From contig NZ_JAQZAM010000007.1 of NCBI RefSeq assembly GCF_028737215.1, forward strand, positions 124,001 through 188,000: a stretch of 64,000 nt of DNA. Reading direction: 5' to 3'. Origin of the DNA: Actinomycetospora chibensis (lineage in GTDB: Bacteria > Actinomycetota > Actinomycetes > Mycobacteriales > Pseudonocardiaceae). The first letter of the stretch is position 1. Every line of letters starts with the position of its first letter. Position numbers and translations under genes: made by a program. Under the pieces are notes generated by a model, which made no database searches, was not told the origin of the DNA, and was given only the letters and a program-made list of their open reading frames with translations. Shown here in pieces: positions 318 through 14,344 of the stretch.

Positions 318-1526
318 ATGAAGGCCGTCGCCTACATCGAGCCCATGAAGGTCGAGGTCCAGGACATCGAGTACCCGAGCCTGGAGCTCAAGGACGGGCC
401 GGGGGTGAACCCCGCCAACGTCGGGCGGAAGTGCCCGCACGGGGTGATCCTCAAGCTCGTCGCCACCAACATCTGCGGCTCGGACCAGCACATGGTCCGG
501 GGCCGCACCACCGCGCCGCCGGGCCTGATCCTCGGCCACGAGATCACCGGCGAGGTCGTCGAGGTCGGCCGCGACGTCGAGTTCATCAAGCAGGGCGACC
601 TGTGCTCCGCGCCGTTCAACATCGCCTGCGGGCGGTGCCGGATGTGCAAGGAGGGGCACACCGGGGTCTGCCTCAACGTCAACCCCGACCGCCCGGGCTC
701 CGCCTACGGCTACGTCGACATGGGTGGCTGGCAGGGCGGTCAGGCCGAGTACGTGATGGTCCCCTACGCCGACTGGAACCTGCTGAAGTTCCCGGACCGG
801 GACCAGGCGATGGAGAAGATCCTCGACCTGACGATGTTGTCGGACATCTTCCCGACCGGGTACCACGGCTGCGTCTCCGCGGGCGTGACGACGGGATCGA
901 CGGTCTACATCGCGGGTGCGGGACCGGTCGGGCTCGCCGCGGCCGCGTCGGCGCAGCTGCTCGGTGCGGCGGCGGTGATCGTCGGGGACATGAACGCCGA
1001 GCGGCTCGCCCACGCCCGGTCGTTCGGCTGCGAGACCGTCGACCTCACCGAGGACGGCACGCTGCCGGAGAAGATCGAGCAGATCGTCGGCGAGCCCGTG
1101 GTCGACGCGTCGGTCGACGCCGTCGGCTTCGAGGCCCGCGGTTACGGCAAGGACGCCGGCGAGGCCCCGGCCACGGTGCTGAACTCGATCATGGAGGTCA
1201 CGCGCGCGGCGGGGAGGCTGGGCATCCCGGGCCTGTACGTCACCGGCGACCCGGGAGCCCCGGACGAGTCGGCCAAGGAGGGCAGCCTCTCGATCCGCAT
1301 CGGTCTGGGCTGGGCGAAGTCGCACTCGTTCACCACCGGGCAGTGCCCGGTGATGCGCTACCACCGGCAGCTGATGAACGCGATCCTGCGCGACAAGGTG
1401 CAGATCGCGAAGGCGGTCAACGCGGACGTCATCTCCCTCGACGATGCCCCGCAGGGCTACGCCCAGTTCGACTCGGGCGTAGCGAAGAAGTTCGTCATCG
1501 ACCCGCACGGCATGATCGCCCACTGA
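318..1526 (+). CDS. fdhA: Glutathione-independent formaldehyde dehydrogenase (zinc MDR family)
   Basis: 402 aa, the usual length for the Pseudomonas putida FdhA type, which oxidises formaldehyde to formate with a tightly bound NAD and no glutathione. The sequence shows the catalytic zinc region NICGSDQHMVRG followed by GHEITGEVVEVG. The structural zinc cysteines are in CGRCRMCKEGHTGVC. A Rossmann motif GAGPVGLAAAASAQ leads to an acidic residue (VGDMN), as expected for NAD rather than NADP. GAGGAG lies just upstream of the ATG. It is transcribed alone, ends at a strong hairpin, and sits about 1.7 kb from a PQQ alcohol dehydrogenase operon, so detoxifying aldehyde made from methanol or similar alcohols is a reasonable inference. 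Related dismutases are the main alternative. Confidence 0.9.
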   Translation: MKAVAYIEPMKVEVQDIEYPSLELKDGPGVNPANVGRKCPHGVILKLVATNICGSDQHMVRGRTTAPPGLILGHEITGEVVEVGRDVEFIKQGDLCSAPFNIACGRCRMCKEGHTGVCLNVNPDRPGSAYGYVDMGGWQGGQAEYVMVPYADWNLLKFPDRDQAMEKILDLTMLSDIFPTGYHGCVSAGVTTGSTVYIAGAGPVGLAAAASAQLLGAAAVIVGDMNAERLAHARSFGCETVDLTEDGTLPEKIEQIVGEPVVDASVDAVGFEARGYGKDAGEAPATVLNSIMEVTRAAGRLGIPGLYVTGDPGAPDESAKEGSLSIRIGLGWAKSHSFTTGQCPVMRYHRQLMNAILRDKVQIAKAVNADVISLDDAPQGYAQFDSGVAKKFVIDPHGMIAH

Positions 1527-1912: not shown

Positions 1913-3061
1913 TCAGTCGTCGACGGGGACCTCGCCGAAGATCACCAGGCTGATCACGAAGTAGGCGATGTAGAGGCCGAGCAGCACCATGCCGTGCCAG
2001 CGACGCAGCCGGCCGGTCGCCAGGAAGACCGCCGCGATCACCGTCATCACGAGCAGGACCGGCATGTGCCAGGCGAGGGTGTCGTCGTCGATGGTGATGG
2101 CCCCGCCGACGAGCAGGATGATGCCGAGCTTGCCGGTCACGGAGAACACGACGCTCCCGATGACGTTGGCGATGCCGATCTCCGGCGCGCCCCGGCGGGC
2201 GGGCTCGACCGTGAGGAAGATGTCCTCGAGCGATAGCGCCAACGTCGCGATCGTGACGCCGAAGACCGTGCCCTCGATGGCGAACTCGTCGAGGATCCCC
2301 TCGGTGCCCGCACCGGCGACCACGGCGCCGACGACGAGGCCGACCAGGGCCAGGACCGCGAGGACGACGGTGCCGACCGGCGAGGTCTGACGCGCCTTGA
2401 GGAAGCCCTGGTCGATGCGGAGGTCGGCCGGCAGCTCGAAGCCGCCGTGACCGCCGGGGCCGGTGCCGCCGCCCGTGCCCGTACCCGTGCCACTGCCGTC
2501 GGTGCCGGCGCTCGGGCCGTCACCGCCCCCGCCCTCACGGGTCAGGGTGGCCGTGCCGCCTCCGGCGGTCACGCCGGCCTTCTCGAGCTGCTCGTACACC
2601 TCGGCGTTGCGCCACACCGGGCGTCGCGCGGAGTACTCGCGGTAGGCCACCCAGCCGACGAACGCCACGAACAGCAGGAGCAGCACCACGCCGGTGAGGA
2701 CCGTCAGGGCCCCGGTGAGCGCGAGCGCGAACATGATGATCGGCGCGAGGACGAACAGGACGAGGTAGTCCTTCGGGACGTCCACCGGGGTCGGCGCGAT
2801 GATCGCCGCGAGGGCGAGCACGATGCCGGTCATCGCGGTGGTCGTCCCGACGACGGTGCCGAGGGCCACCTCGCTGAGGTCCTCGAGGTTGAGCACGATG
2901 CCGAAGGCGAGGTCGTCGAACTCGATCCCGGTGAAGACGACGGCGATGAGGAAGAGCGAGATCGCCCATCGGCTGGAGACGCCCACCAGATATCCGATGA
3001 GCTTCTCGGCGCTGTACACGAGCACCGCGATGCCCAGGACGAACTGGAGGATGGGGATCAC
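1913..3061 (-). CDS. CaCA-superfamily Na+/Ca2+ (cation) exchanger-like protein
   Basis: 382 aa integral membrane protein with about ten hydrophobic helices in two halves separated by a Gly/Ser/Thr-rich linker (residues about 175-210). Each half carries an alpha-repeat-like segment: GIEFDDLAFGIVLN followed by ALGTVVGTTTA in the first, and LALSLEDIFLTVEP followed by IGIANVIGSVVFS in the second. This is the inverted-repeat plan of sodium/calcium exchangers. The usual GTSLPEL-type signature is altered: acidic pairs D-D and E-D replace the Pro-Glu. Cation specificity therefore cannot be assigned. GTG start at 3061. The upstream 180 bp hold a 12-bp palindrome that could be an operator. Confidence 0.75.
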   Translation of the reverse strand: MIPILQFVLGIAVLVYSAEKLIGYLVGVSSRWAISLFLIAVVFTGIEFDDLAFGIVLNLEDLSEVALGTVVGTTTAMTGIVLALAAIIAPTPVDVPKDYLVLFVLAPIIMFALALTGALTVLTGVVLLLLFVAFVGWVAYREYSARRPVWRNAEVYEQLEKAGVTAGGGTATLTREGGGGDGPSAGTDGSGTGTGTGGGTGPGGHGGFELPADLRIDQGFLKARQTSPVGTVVLAVLALVGLVVGAVVAGAGTEGILDEFAIEGTVFGVTIATLALSLEDIFLTVEPARRGAPEIGIANVIGSVVFSVTGKLGIILLVGGAITIDDDTLAWHMPVLLVMTVIAAVFLATGRLRRWHGMVLLGLYIAYFVISLVIFGEVPVDD

Positions 3062-3200: not shown

Positions 3201-3245
3201 CCCGACCGGATCAGTCCCGCCCAGTTCAATCCCGCCCAGATCAAT
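3201..3245. repeat. Three tandem 15-bp units over the pqqE stop codon
   Basis: The units are CCCGACCGGATCAGT, CCCGCCCAGTTCAAT and CCCGCCCAGATCAAT. The last unit covers the pqqE stop (3241-3243). A partial fourth unit precedes them. This is a local duplication at a gene end with no evident function. Confidence 0.6.
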
Positions 3246-4395
3246 CGGCGCGATGCGGCCGGACCGCGAGCTCCGGCATCCCCAGCCCGACGGGCCCGGA
3301 CCCGACCGGGACGGGGCCGACCTGCTCGGCGGGGTCGGCGGTGGCGGGGTCGTTCGCCGCCGCGACGGCCTCGTCGATGAGGTGGCGATCGGGCGAGAGC
3401 ACGCAGACCGGGTCGGTGCGGGTCATGTCCCCGGTGAGCTGGAAGGCCTGGCAGCGGCACCCGCCGAGGTCGACCTCGCGGCGCTCGCAGCTGCGGCACG
3501 GGTCGGGCATCCAGTCGGTGCCCCGGAACGCGGTGAACATCGGCGACGAACGCCAGATCCAGTCCAGGGGGTGCTCCCGGACGTTCGCCTTCGGCAGCGG
3601 CAGCTCGTGGGCGGACAGGCACGGCCAGGCGTTTCCCTCGGGCCCGATGACGAGCTGGCGATCGCCCCAGCCGCCCATGCAGGGCTTGGGGTAGCGGCTG
3701 TAGTAGTCGGGGATGACGTAGATGACGTCGGTGCGGTCCCGCAGGCGCTCGCGGAACGCCCGGGTGACCTTCTCCGCGTTCTCGAGCTGCTCACGGCTCG
3801 GCAGCAGCGCGGACCGGTTGGCCAGCGCCCAGCCGTAGTACTGGGTGTTGGCGAGCTCGACGCGGTCGGCCCCGAGCTCCTCCACCCAGCCGAGGATGGC
3901 CTCGACGCGGTCGATGTTCTGGCGGTGCAGCACGACGTTGAGGGTCAGCGGCCACCCCAGCTCCTTGACCAGCCGGGCCGCCTCGATCTTCTTGTCGAAC
4001 GACGAGATGCCGGCGAGACGGTCGGAGAGCACGGGCTCGTCGGCCTGGATGCTGACCTGCACGTGGTCGAGGCCGGCGTCGCGCAGCGCCTGCGCACGCG
4101 GGCGGGACAGACCGATCGCGCTGGTGACGAGGTTCGTGTACATCCCGAGCGAGCTCGCGTGCCCGACGAGCTCGACGAGGTCGCGGCGCAGCAGCGGCTC
4201 GCCACCCGAGAAGTGGCTCTGCAGCACGCCGAGGTCCGCGGCCTCGTCGAGCACGCGGTGCCAGTCCGCGGTGGCCAGCTCCGCGGAGCGCTTGGTGAGC
4301 TCCAGCGGGTTCGAGCAGTACGAGCACGACAGCGGGCAGGCGTGCGTCAGTTCGGCGAGCAGACCGAGTGGGCCGTCCACCGTCGTCTCAGGCAC
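3241..4395 (-). CDS. pqqE: PQQ biosynthesis radical SAM protein PqqE
   Basis: 384 aa. Makes the Glu-Tyr carbon-carbon crosslink in PqqA, the first committed step of PQQ synthesis, with PqqD as peptide chaperone. The radical SAM cluster motif is CPLSCSYC near residue 20, followed by the SAM-binding FSGGEPLL. A C-terminal SPASM-type domain supplies auxiliary cluster cysteines: PCMGGWGD, WPCLSAHE, PCRSCERREVDLGGCRC and DPVC. The GTG start overlaps the pqqD end by 8 bp. The last 45 residues are Pro/Val/Gly-rich and look dispensable. It is the last gene of the PQQ operon. Confidence 0.95.
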   Translation of the reverse strand: MPETTVDGPLGLLAELTHACPLSCSYCSNPLELTKRSAELATADWHRVLDEAADLGVLQSHFSGGEPLLRRDLVELVGHASSLGMYTNLVTSAIGLSRPRAQALRDAGLDHVQVSIQADEPVLSDRLAGISSFDKKIEAARLVKELGWPLTLNVVLHRQNIDRVEAILGWVEELGADRVELANTQYYGWALANRSALLPSREQLENAEKVTRAFRERLRDRTDVIYVIPDYYSRYPKPCMGGWGDRQLVIGPEGNAWPCLSAHELPLPKANVREHPLDWIWRSSPMFTAFRGTDWMPDPCRSCERREVDLGGCRCQAFQLTGDMTRTDPVCVLSPDRHLIDEAVAAANDPATADPAEQVGPVPVGSGPVGLGMPELAVRPHRAD

Positions 4396-4678
4396 CGGTG
4401 TCCTCCTCGATGGCGATCCAGCGACGGGCGACGAGCTGGGCGAGGAACTGCGTCACCTCGTCGTCGACGACGCGGTCGTACCGCCGGCCGAGCTCGTCGA
4501 CGATGTCGGCGACGCTCCGGGTCCCGTCGCAGAGACCGAGGATGTCGGCGCCGGTGGGGTTGAGCGTCACGACCGTCTCCGGACCGAGCAGCACCTGACG
4601 GTCCCGCGCCTTGTCGAAGCGCATCTTGACGAACCGGGCGAGCGCGGGGCGGCCGGTGAGCGGGACGGTGCCGGTCAT
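4388..4678 (-). CDS. pqqD: PqqD peptide chaperone
   Basis: 96 aa, typical length. PqqD is a RiPP recognition element that binds the PqqA leader and presents it to PqqE. The characteristic segments are present: LNPTGADILGLCDG, then a helix VADIVDELGRRY, then a C-terminal LVARRWI. The ATG overlaps the pqqC stop by 4 bp (ATGA) and the 3' end overlaps pqqE by 8 bp, so translation of C, D and E is coupled. PqqD is separate here rather than fused to PqqC. Confidence 0.93.
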   Translation of the reverse strand: MTGTVPLTGRPALARFVKMRFDKARDRQVLLGPETVVTLNPTGADILGLCDGTRSVADIVDELGRRYDRVVDDEVTQFLAQLVARRWIAIEEDTGA

Positions 4679-5418
4679 GCCGGATAGGCCCGGTCGATGG
4701 CGTCCATCATCGCCCAGAGCACGTCGTTCTTGAACGCGAGCGCGGCGACGGCGGCGTCCTGCTGCTCGGCCGTGCGGCAGCGCTCGGTGACGATCTCCAG
4801 GGCGTGCTCGGAGTCGCGCGGGGCCTGGTGCAGCCGGTTGCGGAAGTAGTCGAGGCCGTCGCGGTCGATCCAGGTGTAGTGCTTCTCGAACGCCGCGAGG
4901 CGCTCGGCCATGAGGCCCGGCGCGAAGAGCTCGGTGAGCGACGACGCCACGGCCTCGAGCCAGGGCCGGGTGCGCGCGTACACCACGTAGGCGTCGACCG
5001 AGAACCGGACGCCGGGCACGATGTGCCGCCCGTCGAGCAGCTCGGCCCGGTCGAGCCCGACGGCCTCGCCGAGGCGCAGCCAGGCCTCGATGCCGCCCTC
5101 GGTCGTCTCGGTCCCGTCGTGGTCGGTGATGCGCCGGATCCAGCGCTGCCGGATCTCGCGGTCGGGGCAGTTGCCCAGGATCGCGGCGTCCTTGCGGGGG
5201 ATCGCCTCCTGGTAGCAGAACCGGTTGGCCACCCAGCCCCGGATCTGGGCGGGGGAGAGCTCGCCCGCGTTCATCCGGACGTGGAAGTCGTGCTCGCTGT
5301 GGTAGCGGGTGGCCTGGGACCGCAGGCGTTCGACGAGCGCGTCCGGGCCCACGGCGCCGCCGTGTCCGGCGCCGTTCGTCCCCGCCACCTCGTGGGTCAC
5401 GTCGTGCGTCGCGGTCAT
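4675..5418 (-). CDS. pqqC: Pyrroloquinoline-quinone synthase PqqC
   Basis: 247 aa. Cofactorless oxidase of the heme-oxygenase-like fold that performs the last ring closure and eight-electron oxidation to PQQ. Conserved features are HSEHDFHVRMNAGEL, the NRFCYQEAIPRKDAAIL segment, RITDHDG and the YFRNRL-x-H-x-P C-terminal helix. The start ATG was chosen at 5418 because a GGAGG lies in the end of pqqB just upstream and the residues from here match the family. The first about 25 residues are a Gly/His-rich extension. It starts 5 bp after the pqqB stop and overlaps pqqD by 4 bp. Confidence 0.95.
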   Translation of the reverse strand: MTATHDVTHEVAGTNGAGHGGAVGPDALVERLRSQATRYHSEHDFHVRMNAGELSPAQIRGWVANRFCYQEAIPRKDAAILGNCPDREIRQRWIRRITDHDGTETTEGGIEAWLRLGEAVGLDRAELLDGRHIVPGVRFSVDAYVVYARTRPWLEAVASSLTELFAPGLMAERLAAFEKHYTWIDRDGLDYFRNRLHQAPRDSEHALEIVTERCRTAEQQDAAVAALAFKNDVLWAMMDAIDRAYPA

Positions 5419-5423
5419 CCGCT

Positions 5424-6350
5424 CTAGACCTCCACCTCGAGCCCGTCGGTCGCGATCTCCGCGCCGCGGGCGACCACCGTGGCGTACTCGGGGGAGTCCT
5501 CGAGCAGCATGGGGTTCGTGTTGTTGATGTGTACGTAGATCTTGCGTTCCGCCGGCAGGCCGGCCAGGACCGCGAGGCTCCCGTCCGGACCGTCGACGGC
5601 CATGTGCCCCATGTCGCGGGCGGTCTTGGACGCCAGGTCCAGGCGGATCATCTCGTCGTCGGTCCACGTCGTGCCGTCGACCAGCACGACGTCCGCGGCC
5701 GCGAGCTCGTCGTGCACCGCGGGGGTGATCTCCTGGACGCCCGGCAGGTACACCGCGACGCGCCCGCTCGCGGTGTCGGTGAGGCGGTAGCCCACCACCC
5801 GGCCGACGTCCGAGGCGGCTCCGACCGTGGACGAGCTCCGTGCGGCGTCGTCCGCGAACCGCTTCTTCTTCACCGTCGGTACGTCGAACGCGCGGTAGGA
5901 CAGGCCCTCGCCGAGCGCGACGGTCTCGCCGGGGACGACGCGCCGCCGGTCGACCGCCGTGTAGCGCTCCAGGGTCGGCAGGAAGCCGGTGCCCCCGGTG
6001 AGGGTCTCGACGCTGGCGTCGGAGGCATGCAGCTCGATGCCCGGACCCTCGCGCAGGAGCAGCAGACCCATCGTGTGGTCGAGCTCGGCGTCGGTGAGCA
6101 GCACCGCGGCGATCGGGCTCTCGCGTCCCGAACGGGGCTGCAGCGCGGGCGTGGCCTCGATCTGGCTGCGGAGGTCGGGGGAGGCGTTGACCAGGAACCA
6201 GGTGGTCCGGTCGGCGCTGACGGCGATCGACGACTGGGTGCGCGGCCGGGTCGGGCGGGAACCGTCGCGGACGGCGCGGCAACCCGGGCACCCGCAGTTC
6301 CACTGGGGGAAGCCGCCACCGGCGCCTGCTCCCAGCACCCGCACCCACAT
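5424..6350 (-). CDS. pqqB: PQQ biosynthesis protein PqqB
   Basis: 308 aa. Metallo-beta-lactamase-fold iron hydroxylase that oxidises the tyrosine of the released Glu-Tyr dipeptide. The N-terminus MWVRVLGAGAGGGFPQWNC and the zinc knuckle CGCPGC are typical. The metal-binding loop LLTDAELDHTMGLL-x-LRE replaces the usual HxHxDH, as in other PqqB proteins. ATG at 6350 is preceded by AGGAGGAGG. A hairpin lies between it and pqqA1, so its expression is probably lower than that of the precursor. Confidence 0.95.
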   Translation of the reverse strand: MWVRVLGAGAGGGFPQWNCGCPGCRAVRDGSRPTRPRTQSSIAVSADRTTWFLVNASPDLRSQIEATPALQPRSGRESPIAAVLLTDAELDHTMGLLLLREGPGIELHASDASVETLTGGTGFLPTLERYTAVDRRRVVPGETVALGEGLSYRAFDVPTVKKKRFADDAARSSSTVGAASDVGRVVGYRLTDTASGRVAVYLPGVQEITPAVHDELAAADVVLVDGTTWTDDEMIRLDLASKTARDMGHMAVDGPDGSLAVLAGLPAERKIYVHINNTNPMLLEDSPEYATVVARGAEIATDGLEVEV

Positions 6351-6390
6351 CGTGAGACGTCCTCCTCCTGAGCATTTCCGGTACAACGCA

Positions 6391-6428
6391 CGCGAGGGGC
6401 GCCGAGAGCAATCCTGGCGCCCCTCGCG
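6391..6428 (-). terminator. Intercistronic hairpin between pqqA1 and pqqB
   Basis: CGCGAGGGGCGCC (6391-6403) pairs perfectly with 6416-6428 across a 12-nt loop. On the minus strand it lies just after the pqqA1 stop and before the pqqB ribosome binding site. It probably works as a partial terminator or 3' RNA stabiliser that lets the precursor peptide be made in excess over the enzymes. Confidence 0.65.
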
Positions 6429-6438
6429 GTGACGTTGG

Positions 6439-6531
6439 TCAGTCGTCGAGCTGAGCGATGTACATCGTCACCTCGGGGGCGACGCCGAACTCCTCGAACT
6501 GCGGGGTCTCCCACACGGCGAGCGTCTCCAT
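6439..6531 (-). CDS. pqqA: PQQ precursor peptide PqqA (copy 1)
   Basis: 30 aa, too short for routine ORF calling. It contains the substrate core PEVTMYIAQ, in which the Glu and Tyr separated by three residues are crosslinked by PqqE and become PQQ. The leader has the METLAVWETPQFEEFG start, with Trp and Pro placed as in the classical MWTKP leader. ATG at 6531 has a perfect AAGGAGG 11 nt upstream. It is followed by a strong hairpin and then pqqB. It is one of two copies in the operon. Confidence 0.93.
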   Translation of the reverse strand: METLAVWETPQFEEFGVAPEVTMYIAQLDD

Positions 6532-6605
6532 GTCTGATGCCACCTCCTTTCTCAACGGTCGGTCCAACCTACCTGCCGCGGCGGACCGCAGCAGTGATTC
6601 GGGGA

Positions 6606-7370
6606 TCACCAGAATTTGATCCCGACGGACTTGAGGCGGCGCTTGTGGAGCTGGTCCACCTTCTCGATGTCCTTGGAGGAGATGAGGTCGCCCCAGGCCC
6701 AGGCCGCTTTCGAGCCCTCGTTGAGGATTTTCTCGAGGTCGTTGTCGACGAGGTCGGCGCTCTGGATGACCCGTGAGCCGAAACCGATGTGCCAGCGCTC
6801 GTCGCGCAGCACCAGTTCCATGCCCTTGCGCATCCCCGGCATGGGGACGGACAACTTCTCGAGGGCGTCGAGCAGCGCGTGCTGCCCGGCCGTGAGGACC
6901 ACGCCCTCGAGGATCATGTGGTAGAGCCCGACCGCGGTGGTCAGCTCCTCGTCGGACTCGGCGAGGCCGCGGGCGATGGCCGGCAGGCGCTCCTCGAACA
7001 GCTCGAGGAGCTCCGGGCTCACCCGCTCACGCAGGACCTGGAGCCGCTCGTTGAGGTTCTTCCCCGGGACGCCGACGACCTCGCCGACGACGCGGTCGAA
7101 GAAGCGGGCGTGCCGGGCCTCGTCGCGGGCCTGCGCCTCGAAGCAGCCGGCCATCGCGTCGTCGACGGTGGCCTTCGACTGGAACGATCCGAGGTGCAGG
7201 GCCACCGACGTCTCACCGACGCAGAAGCCGGCGATCAGCCCGAGGATCTGGTCGTACTCGCTGTCCTCGAGCTTCGTCCAGGACTCGATGTCCGTGGTGA
7301 GGTCGATGGCGGTCTCGTCCCACTGCAGTGATTCCGCGAGTTGGACGAAGTGGCCGTACCCGGTGATCAT
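6606..7370 (-). CDS. R2-like ferritin-fold diiron protein
   Basis: 254 aa, shorter than true ribonucleotide reductase small subunits. A full set of carboxylate-bridged diiron ligands can be read in order: E53, E84-x-x-H87 (DEARH), E155, E191-x-x-H194 (DERWH). This is the R2/ferritin-like pattern. The position four residues after the first His, where R2 has its radical tyrosine, is Phe, which argues against a reductase role. It lies 12 bp after a rubredoxin gene inside the PQQ operon, so it is probably an oxidase or oxygenase fed by the rubredoxin. The substrate is unknown: a PQQ intermediate, an alcohol or alkane, or simply O2/peroxide are possible. Automatic annotation would call it ribonucleotide reductase beta. 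Confidence 0.75.
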   Translation of the reverse strand: MITGYGHFVQLAESLQWDETAIDLTTDIESWTKLEDSEYDQILGLIAGFCVGETSVALHLGSFQSKATVDDAMAGCFEAQARDEARHARFFDRVVGEVVGVPGKNLNERLQVLRERVSPELLELFEERLPAIARGLAESDEELTTAVGLYHMILEGVVLTAGQHALLDALEKLSVPMPGMRKGMELVLRDERWHIGFGSRVIQSADLVDNDLEKILNEGSKAAWAWGDLISSKDIEKVDQLHKRRLKSVGIKFW

Positions 7371-7382
7371 TGATCAGCATCC

Positions 7383-7601
7383 TCACATCCCCGGGAGGTG
7401 CTCTCCCGGTTCCAGCATGCGGAAGTCGGACTTCTCGGCTCCGCAGATCGGGCACATCCAGTCGTCCGGGATGTCTTCGAAGGCCGTCCCGGGCGGTATG
7501 CCGCTGTCGGGGTCGCCCTCCTCCGGATCATAGATGAATCCGCACAGTTCGCAGAGCCAACGTGGGGCCTCGGGCGGCGCCAGCGTCTCCTCGACGGTCA
7601 T
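7383..7601 (-). CDS. Rubredoxin
   Basis: 72 aa. It has the two iron-binding knuckles CELCGF (C17, C20) and [11 protein letters not shown] (C50, C53), with the usual [20 protein letters not shown] stretch between them. There is an acidic, Pro-rich N-terminal extension of about 13 residues and a short C-terminal tail. It is a soluble one-electron carrier that normally serves diiron hydroxylases or peroxide/superoxide reductases. Immediately upstream of the R2-like diiron gene, its natural partner is that protein. Confidence 0.93.
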
Positions 7602-7647
7602 ACCCTCTCTCCACGGTTCTCCGGCCCGGGCGGTCCCGAAACCGGAG

Positions 7648-7680
7648 AGGGGCGCCGGACCTGCGAGGTCCGGCGCCCCT
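7648..7680 (-). terminator. Intercistronic hairpin after pqqA2
   Basis: AGGGGCGCCGGACC (7648-7661) pairs perfectly with 7667-7680 across a 5-nt loop. It lies 15 nt past the pqqA2 stop and before the rubredoxin gene. It shares the GAGGGGCGCC core with the hairpin after pqqA1 apart from one base. It is likely to split the operon into a strongly expressed front part (partner protein, dehydrogenase, pqqA2) and a weaker distal part. Confidence 0.65.
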
Positions 7681-7695
7681 CCCGGTGTCAGTCGA

Positions 7696-7785
7696 TCAGT
7701 CGTCCATCTGGGCGACGTACATCGTCACCTCAGGAGCGACCCCGATCTCCTCGAACTGCGGGGCCTCCCACACGTGGAGCTCCAT
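7696..7785 (-). CDS. pqqA: PQQ precursor peptide PqqA (copy 2)
   Basis: 29 aa. It carries the same core PEVTMY followed by VAQMDD, and a leader [15 protein letters not shown] very similar to copy 1. ATG at 7785 is preceded by AGAGGAGG. It sits directly downstream of the PQQ dehydrogenase gene and is followed by its own hairpin, so it should be transcribed with the dehydrogenase. The two copies differ mainly at leader positions 3-5 and the last residues. Both keep the reactive Glu and Tyr. Confidence 0.93.
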
Positions 7786-7832
7786 CTCGTGACCTCCTCT
7801 CACAGGTCTCGCGATCCCGCCGGAGCGGAAAA

Positions 7833-9521
7833 CTAGTTCTCGGGCAGGGCGAAGACGAACAGGGCGTCGCCCGCCGCCGCGCCGAGCAGGCCGGGCAGGA
7901 AGCCCTCGACCCAGCCGCCCCAGCCCGTGGGCACCGCGATGTACTGCCGGCCGTCGATGCTGTACGACATCGGGCTGCTGTGGTGCCCGCTGCCGCACTG
8001 GAACGACCAGAGCTTCTCGCCGGTCTGCTCGTCGAGGGCGACGAACTCGCCGGTCGGCGTGCCCTGGAAGACCAGACCACCGGCGGTGGTCAGCGTCGAG
8101 GCGCACATCGGGTACTCGTTGCGCCAGCGCCACTTCTCCTCGCCCGTGAGCGGGTCGATGGCGGCCACGAATCCGTAGTGGTCGTCGAGGTCGACGGCCA
8201 CGCCGGCACCCCAGTAGGGGATGCTCTCCTTGAATTCGCGGCGACGGCGGGTGGCCGTCGCGCCGACTTCCTGCACCGGCACGTAGATCAGCCCCGTGTT
8301 GGGGCTGTACGCCATGTGCGTCCATTCCTTGCCGCCGGCCGGGCCCGGCCAGAAGTGCACCGGGACACCTTCCTCGTCCGGGTACACCTTCGGCGTGACC
8401 TTGCCGTCGGGGCTGATGTCGCCCCAGGTGATGCGGTCGACGAACGGGAACACGCGGACGAGCTCGCCGTTCGTGCGGTCGAGGACGAAGAAGTAGCCGT
8501 TCTTGTCCGCGTGGGCGAGCAGCTTGCGCCCGTCCGGAGCGTCGAAGAGGAGGTTCTCCATCGTCGAGTCGTAGTCCCACAGGTCGTGGGGCGTGAACTG
8601 GTAGTGCCAGCGAATCTCGCCGGTGTTCACGTCGATGGCGACCGTCGAGTCGGTGTAGAGGTTGTCGCCCTCGCGCACACCGCCGTCGAAGTCGGGCGCC
8701 GGGTTGCCCGTCCCCTGGAACAGGAGCTCGAGCTCCGGGTCGTAGGAGGGGGTGATCCAGCAGTTCGCGCCGCCGCGCTGCCAGGCCTCGCCGTCGTCCG
8801 GCCAGGTCTCCGAGCCGGGCTCGCCCGGCTTCGGCACCGTGTAGCAGCGCCACTGGCGCTCGCCGGTCTGGGCGTCGAACGCGTCCAGGTGGCCGCGGAC
8901 ACCGAACTCGCCGCCTGCGCTGCCGACGATGACCTTGTCCTTGACGATCAGCGGGGCCACCGAGCCGGACTCACCCGCGCGCACGTCGCCGTTGGTGACG
9001 TCCCAGACCAGGTCGCCGGTCTCCGCGTCGAGCGCGATGAGGTGGGCGTTGAGGGTGTACATATACACCTTGCCGTGGCCCACCGCGACGCCCCGGTTGA
9101 CGTTGCCGCAGCACAGCGAGACGTCGTACGGGGAGGCGTGCTTGTAGCGCCACAGCTCCTCGCCGGTCTTGCCGTCGATCGCCCAGACCTTGCCCTCCGG
9201 GCCCGAGACGAACATGACGCCGTCCACCACGAGCGGGGACGCCTCGAACGAGTACGTCGAGGAGCCGGAGTGCAGACCCGTCGAGCCGGCCTGGAACACC
9301 CACGCGGGGCTCAGGCGCTTGACGGTGTCCTTGTTGATCTGGTCGAGCCGGCTGTGCCGCTGGGCGTCGTAGGTGCCGTAGTAGGTGATCCAGTTGTGCG
9401 GCTCCGAGGCCGCGTTCTGGATGCGCTCGTAGTCGACGTTGCTGACCTGCGGGGCCTGTCCCTTGACGGCGCTCAGGGTCTTGTGGGGGACGGCCTCGCC
9501 GGCGTCCACGTAGTCAGTCAT
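7833..9521 (-). CDS. PQQ-dependent alcohol dehydrogenase (eight-bladed propeller), no signal peptide
   Basis: 562 aa. Repeated Trp-docking motifs (LDAETGDLVW, FDAQTGERQW, IDPLTGEEKWRW, LDEQTGEKLW) define the propeller. The vicinal disulfide C137-C138 (SLCCGN) that caps PQQ is present. Predicted metal and catalytic residues are E205, N273 (GTGNPAP) and D297 (AIDVNTG). The residue two after D297 is Asn, not the Asp typical of lanthanide enzymes, so a calcium-type site is likely. AGAGAGG sits upstream of the ATG at 9521, and the first 45 residues are hydrophilic with no Sec or Tat signal, which is odd for this family. No cytochrome c gene or domain is present to take electrons. Substrate probably a primary alcohol; unproven. 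Confidence 0.88.
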   Translation of the reverse strand: MTDYVDAGEAVPHKTLSAVKGQAPQVSNVDYERIQNAASEPHNWITYYGTYDAQRHSRLDQINKDTVKRLSPAWVFQAGSTGLHSGSSTYSFEASPLVVDGVMFVSGPEGKVWAIDGKTGEELWRYKHASPYDVSLCCGNVNRGVAVGHGKVYMYTLNAHLIALDAETGDLVWDVTNGDVRAGESGSVAPLIVKDKVIVGSAGGEFGVRGHLDAFDAQTGERQWRCYTVPKPGEPGSETWPDDGEAWQRGGANCWITPSYDPELELLFQGTGNPAPDFDGGVREGDNLYTDSTVAIDVNTGEIRWHYQFTPHDLWDYDSTMENLLFDAPDGRKLLAHADKNGYFFVLDRTNGELVRVFPFVDRITWGDISPDGKVTPKVYPDEEGVPVHFWPGPAGGKEWTHMAYSPNTGLIYVPVQEVGATATRRRREFKESIPYWGAGVAVDLDDHYGFVAAIDPLTGEEKWRWRNEYPMCASTLTTAGGLVFQGTPTGEFVALDEQTGEKLWSFQCGSGHHSSPMSYSIDGRQYIAVPTGWGGWVEGFLPGLLGAAAGDALFVFALPEN

Positions 9522-9535
9522 TGACGGGTTCCTCT

Positions 9536-10000
9536 CTACGGGCGCGGCTGCGGGGGACGGTCGAGCTTGGCCGAGTCCGGCACCTCGCCACCGAAGACGA
9601 GCGCGGCGGTCAGCCCGCGGCCCTCGTCGTTGCCGGTGGTGGAGCCGTAGTAGTACGTGCCCGGTCCGCCCAGGTTGAGCCGCGCCGTGCCCTTGGAGTG
9701 GTTGACCATCCAGATGATCTTGGGGTCACCGTTGTTGGGCAGCACCGCGCAGTGCGTGTTCTTGTCGTCGTTGATCAGCGTGAGCTCGATCTCGCCACCG
9801 TGCGGGAAGACGAGGATCGAGGGCTCCCAGACGAGCTGGTCCTCCGGGATGCGGACCGTGGCCCGCATGACCCCGTCCGATCCCTCCTCGGCGTAACCGA
9901 TGCCGCCGGTACCGAGCAGTCGGCCCAGGGCCGTCCTGTTCTGTCCGTCCAGTCCCGCTGCATGCAGCTCGGACTCGCGATCGCTATCCGTGGCCGTCAT
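9536..10000 (-). CDS. PQQ-associated cupredoxin-like protein (MSMEG_3727-type)
   Basis: 154 aa, first gene of the PQQ operon. ATG at 10000 preceded by GAGGAGGG. The beta-rich half (about 45-140) resembles cupredoxins: VWEPSILVFPHGGEIELTLIN, a ligand-like His83 in THCAVLPNN, and the closing GGPGTYYYGSTTGN. The usual downstream Cys, His and Met copper ligands appear as Ser120, Asn124 and Leu130, so a type 1 copper site is not evident. No signal peptide is visible. Its fixed position next to a PQQ dehydrogenase matches the mycobacterial MSMEG_3726/3727 pair. It may be a structural or electron-transfer partner of the dehydrogenase; the function is unknown. Confidence 0.7.
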   Translation of the reverse strand: MTATDSDRESELHAAGLDGQNRTALGRLLGTGGIGYAEEGSDGVMRATVRIPEDQLVWEPSILVFPHGGEIELTLINDDKNTHCAVLPNNGDPKIIWMVNHSKGTARLNLGGPGTYYYGSTTGNDEGRGLTAALVFGGEVPDSAKLDRPPQPRP

Positions 10001-10744
10001 CGGCCATCCCTCCTCGTCACTAGCGGACTTCCTGCTCGTGGTGGCACGGCCACCACGTGAACCAGCCCGGCCCTTCCGTCGTCGACGGTCACGCGGGCTC
10101 GGGACGACCGGGAGCTGTGTGCTCTCCCGGCCGGACGAGCCGCGTGCCCTCGACCCGGCGGACGGCGGGATCGACGTGCGGGGAGGAGGAGGCCGTGCTG
10201 CCGGAGCTGATGCGCCCCGGCGCGAGCGCGTCCGTGGACGCATGCTCGGGCACTCCCATGTGCTCCTCCTGGCCGTCGCCGTCCCGGGGACACCTCGGAG
10301 ACGGCGTACAGCAGGTGCCGCCACGATCCCGGAGGACCGTCTGGCCGAGGGTCTCGACCGCTGGGCGGCAGGACACGACGTGATCGACGACGAGCGGAGC
10401 CAGTCGGTCGACCAACGGTGTGTGCTGAGCCACAGGTGACCATAGGGATGCGGTCCGTGATCGGCAAGGGTCCGATCGGTCCGTCGGCGCTCTCGATCAC
10501 GGCGATCCGGCCCTTCCGACCGGGCTCGCCAGGGGAAACGACGGCGACCGAGAAATCTCGACGGCGTTCCGACTTCCGGAATCGGGGCCCTGTGGATCAC
10601 GGCTCGTCGCGCCCGCGCAGGGCACCTGTCCAACCCGCCAGTTTCCTCGTCCCGAGGTGTCCCGGGTCACCGCGCGGAGCTATGGTCGCGGCAGGGCGAT
10701 GCCGGCGACGGGGACCGACATGGGGTCCGGCAGGAGGTCGATCG
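10001..10744. other. 744-bp intergenic region upstream of the PQQ operon
   Basis: No convincing gene. Codon-position bias is weak in all frames, and a minus-strand open frame (10089-10433) has no ribosome binding site and loses coding character after about 35 codons. The region contains the divergent promoters of the PQQ operon and the CYTH-like gene. Two inverted repeats are visible: 10037-10057, and an imperfect one around 10108-10131 (CCGGGAGC-TGTGT-GCTCTCCCGG). It may include decayed coding DNA. Confidence 0.5.
10037..10057. promoter_or_regulatory. Inverted repeat just upstream of the PQQ operon
   Basis: CGTGGTGG (10037-10044) and CCACCACG (10050-10057) with a 5-nt spacer, centred about 45 bp upstream of the first gene. 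It could be an operator or a 5'-leader hairpin. It is the most obvious candidate control site for the operon. Confidence 0.4.
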
Positions 10745-11500
10745 GTGGGCAGTTTCGCGGCGGCCGAGGCACTCGCCCAGCTGGACGGCCCGGGGGACGA
10801 CACCGCCAGCGTCGAGATGAAGTCGCTGCTCGTGCCCCCGGCCGGCGCGGCGGCCGAGGCCCTGACGGGACGTCCGTCCCCGACGTGGAGCGTGCGCGAG
10901 TCCTACCTCGTCGACACCCCCTCGCTGGACCTGATCCGCGCCGGCGTCGAGATCCGCCTGCGCCGCCGGGCCCGCGGGCGCTTCGACCTCTGCGTGTCCA
11001 CGCGGCATGGCGGCACCGGGCGGCCCCCGGCGATCCCCCGGGGCGCGCGCGTGGAGTACGACGTCGTGCCGGGGGGCGTGTGGCAGGACATCGAGGTGCG
11101 CCGCGAGATCGATCGCGCCGCGGCCGCCGCGGTGATCGCAGGCTCGGCCGAGTCGCGGCAGTTGCTCTCGCCCGCCCAGAAGACGTGGGCCTGCGGCGGC
11201 GGCAGCGAGACCGTCGACGACGACCTGCTCAAGGAGCTCCTGGTCCACGGCCCGCTGGTGGTGCGGCGGGTCAAGGTCGCGGCGGCCGAGGGGCTGAGCC
11301 GGGCCGACCTCGAGCACTTCCGGTTTCCCAGCGGACGGGAGCTCCTCGAGCTCTCCACCCGGTGCTGCCCGCCGGAGGTGGTCGCCACCGCGGCGGCGTT
11401 CGAGCGGCTGATCGCCGAGCGCGACGTCACCTGCGCGGGGGAGTACGTCCAGAAGACCTCGGTGTGGGCCGACGAGGTCGGCTACCACGCCGGTCGCTGA
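10745..11500 (+). CDS. CYTH-like domain protein
   Basis: 251 aa. The GTG start at 10745 is fixed by AGGAGG seven bases upstream. The order SVEMKSLLVP, then YLVDTPSLDLIRAGVEIRLR, then GRFDLCVSTR, then RVEYDVV and DIEVRREID resembles the beta-barrel of CYTH proteins, which hydrolyse or bind triphosphates (adenylate cyclase CyaB, thiamine triphosphatase, inorganic triphosphatase). The signature E-x-E-x-K is reduced to x-E-M-K, so catalytic activity is uncertain. The C-terminal half (150-250) is alpha/beta with a conserved-looking Cys pair (TRCCPPE). It is divergent from the PQQ operon. The family call is by pattern only. Confidence 0.5.
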   Translation: MGSFAAAEALAQLDGPGDDTASVEMKSLLVPPAGAAAEALTGRPSPTWSVRESYLVDTPSLDLIRAGVEIRLRRRARGRFDLCVSTRHGGTGRPPAIPRGARVEYDVVPGGVWQDIEVRREIDRAAAAAVIAGSAESRQLLSPAQKTWACGGGSETVDDDLLKELLVHGPLVVRRVKVAAAEGLSRADLEHFRFPSGRELLELSTRCCPPEVVATAAAFERLIAERDVTCAGEYVQKTSVWADEVGYHAGR

Positions 11501-11576: not shown

Positions 11577-11656
11577 CCGGCCCCGAACGAGCACCGGCCG
11601 GGTGGTGGCGCGTGTGGCTACCGGGGCTCGTGGTGCGCCCGGGATACCGTGACGGC

Positions 11657-14344
11657 ATGGCCGGGCGGACCGAGACACCAGACAAGCGCGCGTCCCGTAG
11701 CCGCCCGTTGACCGGCGGCCGGACGCCCCGCCGCACCGGCGCCGGCCCGCAGACCCCGACCCGGTCGCCCCAGCAGCGCCCGCCGTCGAAGGGTGGGCGG
11801 CGTCCCACCGGCGGGTCGAAGGGCCGGACGACGAAGGGTCGTGCGCCCGTACGACGAGGCGGACCCGGGCCGATCGTGCGCACGCTGCACGGTGGCTGGG
11901 TGCTCACCGCGCGCGGCCTCGGGTCCCTGGTCCGCACCCTGGGACGTGCCCGGGACGTCGACGCCGCCCACCGCCGCGACGGTGTGGCTCTCGGGCTCGT
12001 GGTGCTCGCCGTCCTCACCGCCGCCGGGGTGTGGTGGGGGGCCGGCGGCCCGGTCGGCGCGGGCCTGGACATCGGCCTGCGCACGATCATCGGCGCGGCC
12101 GCCCTGGTCCTGCCCGTCGTCCTGCTGGGCGTCGCGGTCATCCTCCTGCGCACCGACCCGGTGCCCGAGACCCGCCCGCGCAGCGTCGTGGGCGCGCTCC
12201 TGCTGGGCGTCGCCGTGCTCGCCGTCTGGCACCTGGTCACCGGCTCACCCCGTGACCTCGGCGGTCGGCGCGCCGCCGGGGGCGTGATCGGTGCCGTCGT
12301 CGCCGACCCGCTGGCCCGCGGCGTCACCACCTGGATCGCCGGCATCGTGCTCGTGCTCGTCGGGCTCTACGGCCTGCTCGTGCTCACGGGCACCCCCGTC
12401 CGCGAGGTCGGCGAGCGCCTGCGCGCCCTCGTCACCGGCGAGTACCCCGACGACGAGTGGGGTGGTCCCGAGGACGTCGACGTCGACGGGGACGACGGCA
12501 CGGCGCCGACCACGCGGATCCGCCGTCGGCGTCGCGGGGAGGACGCCGCCGAGGACGACCCGGACCCGGACGCCGCCGCGCACCCGGCCCGCCACCGCGA
12601 ACGCACCCCGGGCGCGGTGCCCGACCTCACGACACCTCCCGAGGGTGCTGCGGCGGTCGTCGCCGAGCCCGAGGCCGCCGCCCCCGCGCCGCCCGCGAAG
12701 AAGCGCAGGCCCGCCGCGGCGGCACCCGCCGCCGTGCCCGACGTGACCGCGCCGCCCGAGACCGAGCCCGACCCGCAGGCCGCGGCGTCGTTCAGCTCCC
12801 AGCGCGAGCCCGGCGAGGACGACGACTACCGCCTGCCGCCGCCCGACCTGCTGATCCCCGGCGACCCGCCCAAGGCCCGCAGTGCGGCGAACGACGCGAT
12901 GATCGAGGCGATCACCGGGGTCCTCGAGCAGTTCAAGGTCGACGCGGAGGTCACGGGGTTCACCCGCGGTCCCACCGTCACCCGGTACGAGGTCGAGCTC
13001 GGGCACGGCGTCAAGGTCGAGAAGATCACCGCGCTGCACCGCAACCTGGCCTACGCCGCCGCGACCGACCGGATCCTGCTGCTCGCCCCCATCCCCGGGA
13101 AGTCCGCGGTGGGTATCGAGGTGCCCAACGCCGACCGCGAGATGGTGCGCCTGGCCGACGTCCTGAACTCGCCGACCGCCCGTGCCGAGACCCACCCGAT
13201 GGTCATCGGGCTCGGCAAGGACATCGAGGGCCGGATGGTCACGGCCAACCTGGCGAAGATGCCCCACCTGCTGGTGGCCGGCTCCACCGGGTCCGGCAAG
13301 TCGAGCTTCGTCAACTCGATGCTGGTGTCGCTGCTCACGCGGTCGACGCCGGACGAGGTCCGGATGATCCTCATCGACCCGAAGATGGTCGAGCTGACGC
13401 CCTACGAGGGCATCCCGCACCTGATCACGCCGATCATCACCTCGCCGAAGAAGGCGGCCACCGCGCTGGCCTGGCTGGTCGAGGAGATGGAACAGCGCTA
13501 CACGGACATGCAGGCCAACCGTGTGCGGCACATCGACGACTTCAACCGCAAGGTGCGCTCCGGGGAGATCACCGCGCCGCTCGGCTCCGAGCGCGTCTAC
13601 CGGCCCTACCCGTACATCATGTGCATCGTCGACGAGCTCGCCGACCTCATGATGACCGCCCCGCGCGACGTCGAGGACGCGATCGTCCGGATCACGCAGA
13701 AGGCCCGCGCCGCCGGCATCCACCTGGTGCTCGCGACGCAGCGCCCGTCCGTCGACGTCGTCACCGGCCTGATCAAGACCAACGTGCCGTCGCGCCTGGC
13801 GTTCGCGACGTCGTCGCTGACGGACTCGCGCGTGATCCTCGATCAGCCCGGCGCCGAGAAGCTCATCGGCATGGGCGACGCCCTCTTCCTGCCCATGGGT
13901 GCGGGCAAGACCAACCGCCTGCAGGGCGCGTTCATCGCCGACGACGAGATCAGCGCCGTCGTCGAGCACTGCAAGGAACAGGCCGACCCGGACTACACCG
14001 AGGGCGTCACCACCGAGGCCGCCGGCGAGAAGAAGGAGATCGACGCCGACATCGGCGACGACCTCGAGCTGCTCGTGGCCGCGGCGGAGCTGATCGTCAC
14101 CAGCCAGTTCGGGTCGACCTCGATGCTGCAGCGCAAGCTGCGCGTCGGCTTCGCGAAGGCCGGGCGGCTCATGGACCTGCTCGAGACCCGCGCCGTCGTC
14201 GGACCGTCCGAGGGCTCGAAGGCCCGCGACGTGCTGTTCAAGCCCGACGAGCTGCCCGACCTGCTGGCGTCCCTGCGGGGCGAGCCGGCGCCGTCGGCGG
14301 GCGGGGGCGAGGCCGACACCCGCGTGCCGGACGACGACATCTGA
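11657..14344 (+). CDS. ftsK: DNA translocase FtsK
   Basis: 895 aa. Septum-anchored ATPase that pumps DNA and coordinates chromosome dimer resolution and segregation. A basic, Arg/Pro-rich N-terminus precedes four transmembrane helices (about 115-260). An acidic and Pro/Ala-rich linker (270-390) follows, then the alpha/beta motor with Walker A GSTGSGKS near residue 541 and Walker [14 protein letters not shown] near 655. A winged-helix gamma domain (about 800-875) ends the protein. ATG at 11657 was preferred because TACCGT lies six bases before it, the pattern of a leaderless mRNA. It ends at a hairpin facing argA, the same arrangement as Rv2748c/Rv2747. Confidence 0.96.

Follow-up and report, generated by a model that had tools for sequence, protein, structure and literature searches.

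Actinobacterial loci in which a pyrroloquinoline quinone (PQQ)-dependent alcohol dehydrogenase is encoded with a partner protein of the MSMEG_3727 family (TIGR04339) are already known, and MSMEG_3721-3727 have been mentioned as putatively serving PQQ biosynthesis and the alcohol dehydrogenases that depend on it (PMC6529628). XoxF, a dehydrogenase of the same family, is called periplasmic, and its absence from Gram-positive genomes was judged not surprising (PMC10875860). In 2018 R2lox was described as having no known physiological function (PMC6060897); according to a 2024 report, GkR2loxI lysate degrades alkanes, and the GkR2loxI gene is located among alcohol- and aldehyde-metabolising genes (PMC10867098). 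All four papers are cited from excerpts. The locus analysed here lies in a 64,000-nucleotide stretch of Actinomycetospora chibensis (contig NZ_JAQZAM010000007.1, positions 124,001 to 188,000; hereafter the window) and joins genes for PQQ synthesis, the dehydrogenase and its partner to genes for a rubredoxin and an R2lox-like protein. This pair marks a subtype of the named dehydrogenase-and-partner locus.

The ten genes are read in the order partner, dehydrogenase, pqqA1, rubredoxin, R2lox-like gene, pqqA2, pqqB, pqqC, pqqD, pqqE, with gaps of 14, 47, 94, 12, 74, 88 and 5 nt, after which pqqC/pqqD and pqqD/pqqE overlap. All but the R2lox-like gene are confirmed by curated NCBIfam models. Coordinates and curated models bear out the claim, made in an earlier note on this DNA, of ten genes on the minus strand within 3241-10000, and the spacing is tight; the partner belongs to a named family and is not an unassigned protein.

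The distribution of these genes was surveyed in 397 genomes of the order, 390 of the same family and 396 of the phylum. At E 1e-3 the partner family was detected in 31 of the 397 genomes of the order, 30 of them scoring over cut-off, and 35 of 36 partner places were fetched, the window's own being left out. A dehydrogenase is present in 33 of the 35 (L048 and the weak match L057 have none), and the rubredoxin/R2lox-like pair stands beside all four dehydrogenases of 84-88% identity but beside none of the 29 of 74% or less. The MSMEG_3721-3727/TIGR04339 locus resembles the window in its partner, its dehydrogenase without evident signal peptide and, in many loci, pqqA-E and an exchanger gene, and differs in having neither rubredoxin nor R2lox-like gene in the 29 other dehydrogenase loci examined. 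By profile search the R2lox-like clade is found in five of the 397 order genomes, all of the window's family. In the phylum no match beyond the genome that holds the window was better than 2.4e-38, versus 2.8e-148. Within the family the clade occurs in 44 of 390 genomes (E 1e-78 or better; next best 8e-21), and a dehydrogenase of at least 82% identity was found in 43 by dehydrogenase search (next dehydrogenase 75%); the 44th genome, G1035, has the same dehydrogenase type cut by a contig end (L062). R2lox-like gene and dehydrogenase clade therefore coincide in 44 of 44 genomes both ways, in a few drafts on separate contigs, and the gene is found in none of the 92 remaining genomes with a PQQ-dependent dehydrogenase (1e-60). 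The Fisher p of about 1e-34, computed with 43 and 1 (the cut dehydrogenase of G1035 not yet being counted), is overstated because the genomes share descent. In a tree of 68 sequences the dehydrogenase clade forms one side of a single branch with 100/100 support, the nearest relative of the window's enzyme in tree and locus scan being that of A. callitridis. Given this single origin, the co-occurrence does not amount to 44 independent events; the R2lox-like clade was found within one family only. The linkage of rubredoxin and R2lox-like genes to the dehydrogenase that the earlier note had proposed thus stands within this dehydrogenase clade; as a gene order common to homologous actinobacterial loci it is not supported, since of the 33 dehydrogenase loci fetched from the order 29 lack the pair, which therefore marks a subtype.

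Three arrangements of the pair were seen. In Actinomycetospora and Saccharopolyspora it lies between dehydrogenase and pqqB, in most of the fetched Pseudonocardia loci upstream of the partner, and in L063, L067 and L068 downstream of pqqE; the genera of some genomes were inferred from coordinates that agree with named GTDB loci. In L004, L009 and L020, where pqqB-E are not adjacent, pair and dehydrogenase are still together, and in the window and nine relatives the R2lox-like gene sits between two pqqA genes. Distance matrices of the genes correlate at 0.33-0.86, which is uninformative, and no tblastn match at 1e-20 was found in PLSDB, hence no sign of a plasmid-borne module. A dedicated system, rather than a general PQQ supply, is partly supported, pair and dehydrogenase being linked well beyond chance; exclusivity of the PQQ supply is doubtful, for at least seven genomes (G1042, G986, G385, G314, G790, G1020, G1011) hold a second dehydrogenase of the other type, and the two such loci that were fetched (L042, L044) have no pqqB-E alongside. 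A. callitridis carries a second copy (L003, 9786-11918) reduced to pqqA, R2lox-like gene and exchanger; its R2lox-like protein differs from that of the main copy at 14 positions, all of them before residue 80, and is identical from there to its end, a pattern that suggests recent conversion.

The R2lox-like protein has the ligands E53, E84, H87, E155, E191 and H194, invariant in 36 of 36 aligned rows, which match E69, E102, H105, E167, E202 and H205 of R2lox (numbering from an excerpted source) at R2lox spacing. R2lox is marked further by a Mn/Fe cofactor, an ether cross-link between Val and Tyr and a bound fatty acid. In all 14 clade members compared, V56 (ligand+3) and Y150 (ligand-5) occupy the R2lox cross-link positions. 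The predicted model fits solved R2lox structures best (the top 27 entries among the matches listed), with the R2 subunit of ribonucleotide reductase close behind; rubrerythrin is absent among the best 50 rows of the fold search, and its Pfam match is weak and under cut-off. Predicted fold, six ligands and cross-link positions are those of R2lox from M. tuberculosis (3ee4), G. kaustophilus (4hr0) and S. erythraea (7qbp), whereas the window protein is shorter (254 residues against 316-330 in the PDB sequences), shares 20-27% identity with them, falls under the curated cut-offs and is encoded with a rubredoxin and a PQQ-dependent dehydrogenase. A role as replacement for PqqB was considered and ruled out, PqqB being intact by its curated model. 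No paper combining R2lox with rubredoxin, or pqqA with Pseudonocardia, was found among the PMC papers searched, and no title or abstract opening met there described the locus.

Lanthanide-dependent PQQ alcohol dehydrogenases are marked by an extra aspartate two residues past the catalytic one (WDxD). The window's dehydrogenase has this pair (D316/D318), WDYD being present in 70 of 70 frames, and it probably uses a lanthanide. It shares with PedH and XoxF the family, the adjacent cysteine pair (CC 137-138) and, by alignment, Glu/Asn/Asp/Asp ligands, which presumably bind the metal as they do there; among solved sequences, the quinoprotein ethanol dehydrogenases 6zcv/6zcw come closest. It differs from them in being actinobacterial, in its cupredoxin-like partner and in two absences: no evident N-terminal signal peptide was seen in the 70 dehydrogenase frames (N-termini read and checked for hydrophobicity, with no dedicated predictor) or in the window's partner, and Pfam and NCBIfam scans recognised no cytochrome c gene among the ten genes. 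The enzyme is, on the strength of these N-termini, probably cytoplasmic. Eleven clade-specific positions gave no clear hint of the substrate. Type-1 copper cupredoxins bind the metal through a loop with a Cys...His...Met ligand pattern; the partner has a cupredoxin-like fold without this canonical loop, and GPGxYxxxSxxGNDEGRG stands at the loop, as placed by eye, in 31 of 31 rows. An orphan partner (83% identity) occurs at L048, 9805-10263, in genome G267; its 20-kb region gave no dehydrogenase or pqq match, and no Pfam match explained it.

Apart from the window, 44 distinct loci have the R2lox-like gene, and in 40 of them a rubredoxin gene comes directly before it, the R2lox-like start lying 6-54 nt past the last aligned rubredoxin residue. 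The exceptions are the second copy L003, L100 at a contig edge, and L074 and L099, where inspection found no rubredoxin. Exactly one rubredoxin match, with coordinates beside the R2lox-like gene, was obtained in each of 18 Actinomycetospora genomes, three of which are 59-84% complete, while six further Pseudonocardia genomes have one or two each. In AlkB systems the rubredoxin gene lies next to those of the oxygenase and an alcohol dehydrogenase, and rubredoxin is the electron donor in alkane hydroxylases. The window resembles them in that its rubredoxin adjoins a putative oxygenase and an alcohol dehydrogenase, and departs from them in that the R2lox-like protein is not a membrane AlkB, the rubredoxin is nearer to small canonical ones and no Rbx_binding domain was found. 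An alkB-rubredoxin cluster as the proper home of this rubredoxin could be dismissed, the genome's only rubredoxin sitting here and no Rbx_binding domain being found.

The locus is known here from its genes, and readings of its chemistry rest on sequence and predicted fold. The company of PQQ synthesis, dehydrogenase, R2lox-like protein and rubredoxin suggests a dedicated intracellular oxidation pathway. The reading I tentatively favour, as possible rather than probable, is that in this subtype the dehydrogenase works with an O2-activating R2lox-like protein that supplies its alcohol and is usually served by a dedicated rubredoxin. With O2 and rubredoxin as electron donor, the R2lox-like protein would hydroxylate a C-H substrate, aliphatic or other, and the dehydrogenase encoded with it, using the PQQ that the locus makes, would oxidise the resulting alcohol to the aldehyde. 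Since related dehydrogenases have the partner without the pair, the pair should contribute a step upstream or else another way out for the electrons; the GkR2loxI report favours, weakly, the upstream hydroxylation. Several observations weigh against this reading. The alkane assay was made in crude lysate, and the E202A/H205A metal-ligand double mutant lost activity only slightly (PMC10867098, excerpt), so that the report lends hydroxylation weak support. The best NCBIfam R2lox score is 78 bits against cut-offs of 194-346 in five models, and no substrate-uptake gene was identified. Genome G1001 (L099) has dehydrogenase and R2lox-like gene but no rubredoxin found anywhere, and G983 (L074) has only a weaker rubredoxin match elsewhere in the genome; rubredoxin is therefore a usual, not an obligatory, companion. 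The window's rubredoxin is closer to small canonical rubredoxins (9zdi, 3.6e-24) than to 'Rubredoxin 2' (1s24, 7e-17), a rubredoxin of the alkane type; 2kn9 matched at 1.2e-15. Finally, the Rbx_binding reductase domain (PF18113), found in E. coli as a control, was not found in the window's genome, other reductase types not having been searched.

This last result, the single rubredoxin and the signal-less dehydrogenase favour an electron link from the dehydrogenase. A cytoplasmic quinoprotein would need a different electron acceptor, as it cannot reach an extracytoplasmic cytochrome c, and the locus offers candidates: electrons of PQQH2 might reach the R2lox-like protein by way of partner and rubredoxin, and this protein would then reduce O2 to water as a terminal oxidase and not as a hydroxylase. 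Although the lack of a recognised cytochrome c gene and of evident signal peptides, the likeness to small canonical rubredoxins, the absence of the Rbx_binding domain and the position here of the sole rubredoxin of Actinomycetospora all suit this scheme, two-electron C-H chemistry is what the R2lox ligands and the V/Y pair point to, other actinobacterial dehydrogenases of the type manage without the pair and two genomes have no adjacent rubredoxin; I regard it as somewhat unlikely. Hydroxylation and electron link can be combined in a self-fuelled cytoplasmic module, in which electrons taken from the alcohol by the dehydrogenase would return through the sole rubredoxin to the R2lox-like oxygenase and hydroxylate the next substrate molecule. 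Such a cycle is doubtful; if true, RH + O2 would yield aldehyde and water without NADH, and R2lox would gain a physiological partner.

The position of the R2lox-like gene between two pqqA genes, and its survival with only pqqA and the exchanger in L003, would also fit oxidative modification of PqqA, of a PQQ intermediate or of the dehydrogenase, giving a special cofactor form or a cross-link. A role in PQQ synthesis is nevertheless made less likely by the complete pqqB-E set, whose members all score over curated cut-offs, and by related loci that have pqqB-E and dehydrogenase without the pair; moreover the pair keeps to the dehydrogenase where pqqB-E are not adjacent, and such maturation appears unlikely. 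A rubredoxin next to a diiron protein brings rubrerythrin systems to mind, and the two might scavenge O2 or peroxide around PqqE, an oxygen-sensitive radical S-adenosylmethionine (SAM) enzyme, but other pqqE loci lack the pair and fold and ligands are of R2lox type, which makes protection quite improbable. That the genes are accidental neighbours inherited together is hardly credible: one clade of one inferred origin means that shared descent explains part of the pattern, yet retention in three different positions speaks against mere hitchhiking, as does complete co-occurrence that persists, in a few drafts, across contigs. Whichever reading holds, the function of R2lox now rests on a single alkane report, in which the ligand mutant retained most of its activity (PMC10867098, excerpt), and a close relative that goes with one enzyme, one pathway of cofactor synthesis and, as a rule, one electron carrier provides a testable set. 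The locus also shows that Gram-positive bacteria have a family of lanthanide-type PQQ dehydrogenases in which no export signal is evident, in contrast to the excerpted view of XoxF (PMC10875860).

Table 1. Features of the PQQ locus and its surroundings (window coordinates).
Feature	Position	Strand	Evidence
Glutathione-independent formaldehyde dehydrogenase	318-1526	+	TIGR02819 753 bits, cut-off 637
Na+/Ca2+-exchanger-family protein	1913-3061	-	PF01699 105 bits; TIGR00367 101 bits, under cut-off 180
pqqE, radical SAM/SPASM protein	3241-4395	-	TIGR02109 514 bits, cut-off 381
pqqD	4388-4678	-	TIGR03859 82 bits, cut-off 46
pqqC	4675-5418	-	TIGR02111 310 bits, cut-off 240
pqqB	5424-6350	-	TIGR02108 388 bits, cut-off 245
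13-bp hairpin immediately 3' of pqqA2	6391-6428	-	stem search
pqqA2 precursor peptide, 30 residues	6439-6531	-	over Pfam and TIGR cut-offs
R2lox-like dimetal-carboxylate protein, 254 residues	6606-7370	-	Ribonuc_red_sm 51 bits, cut-off 33.6
Rubredoxin, 72 residues	7383-7601	-	93.6 bits, cut-off 90; sole PF00301 match in genome
18-bp hairpin immediately 3' of pqqA1	7645-7683	-	stem search
pqqA1 precursor peptide, 29 residues, EVTMY core	7696-7785	-	PF08042/TIGR02107, over cut-offs
PQQ-dependent alcohol dehydrogenase, 562 residues	7833-9521	-	TIGR03075 634 bits, cut-off 480
MSMEG_3727-family PQQ-associated partner, 154 residues	9536-10000	-	TIGR04339 257 bits, cut-off 75
Divergent gene	10418-11500	+	no Pfam match
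FtsK-type DNA translocase	11612-14344	+	

Both pqqA copies of the window carry a strong GC-rich hairpin within the 94- and 88-nt gaps, and such hairpins are recurrent in the fetched actinobacterial pqq loci: a stem of at least 12 bp lies within 70 nt 3' of 51 of 68 pqqA motifs, some loci being drawn from two sources and identical stretches counted once. The same search gave none after pqqB (0/52), pqqC (0/51), pqqD (0/50), rubredoxin (0/39) or partner (0/72), and some after the R2lox-like gene (2/44), dehydrogenase (8/70), pqqE (5/50), exchanger (11/50) and formaldehyde-dehydrogenase-like genes (5/16), where terminators may count. The simple reading is an attenuator or stabiliser that would yield more precursor than enzyme, and with hairpins in both gaps one uniform transcript over the ten genes is not to be presumed.

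The exchanger gene adjoins pqqE in many actinobacterial PQQ loci, rubredoxin-less ones included, and its product is a possible accessory, with a possible part in Ca2+ or Ln3+ handling. Past the exchanger, seven of 44 relatives likewise have the formaldehyde dehydrogenase gene, which would suit a PQQ-dependent enzyme that acts on methanol or in C1 metabolism. Upstream of the partner, the divergent gene is followed by that of the FtsK-type translocase, and in two Pseudonocardia loci, L018 and L061, a protein that by eye resembles the divergent gene's product is encoded between partner and R2lox-like gene.
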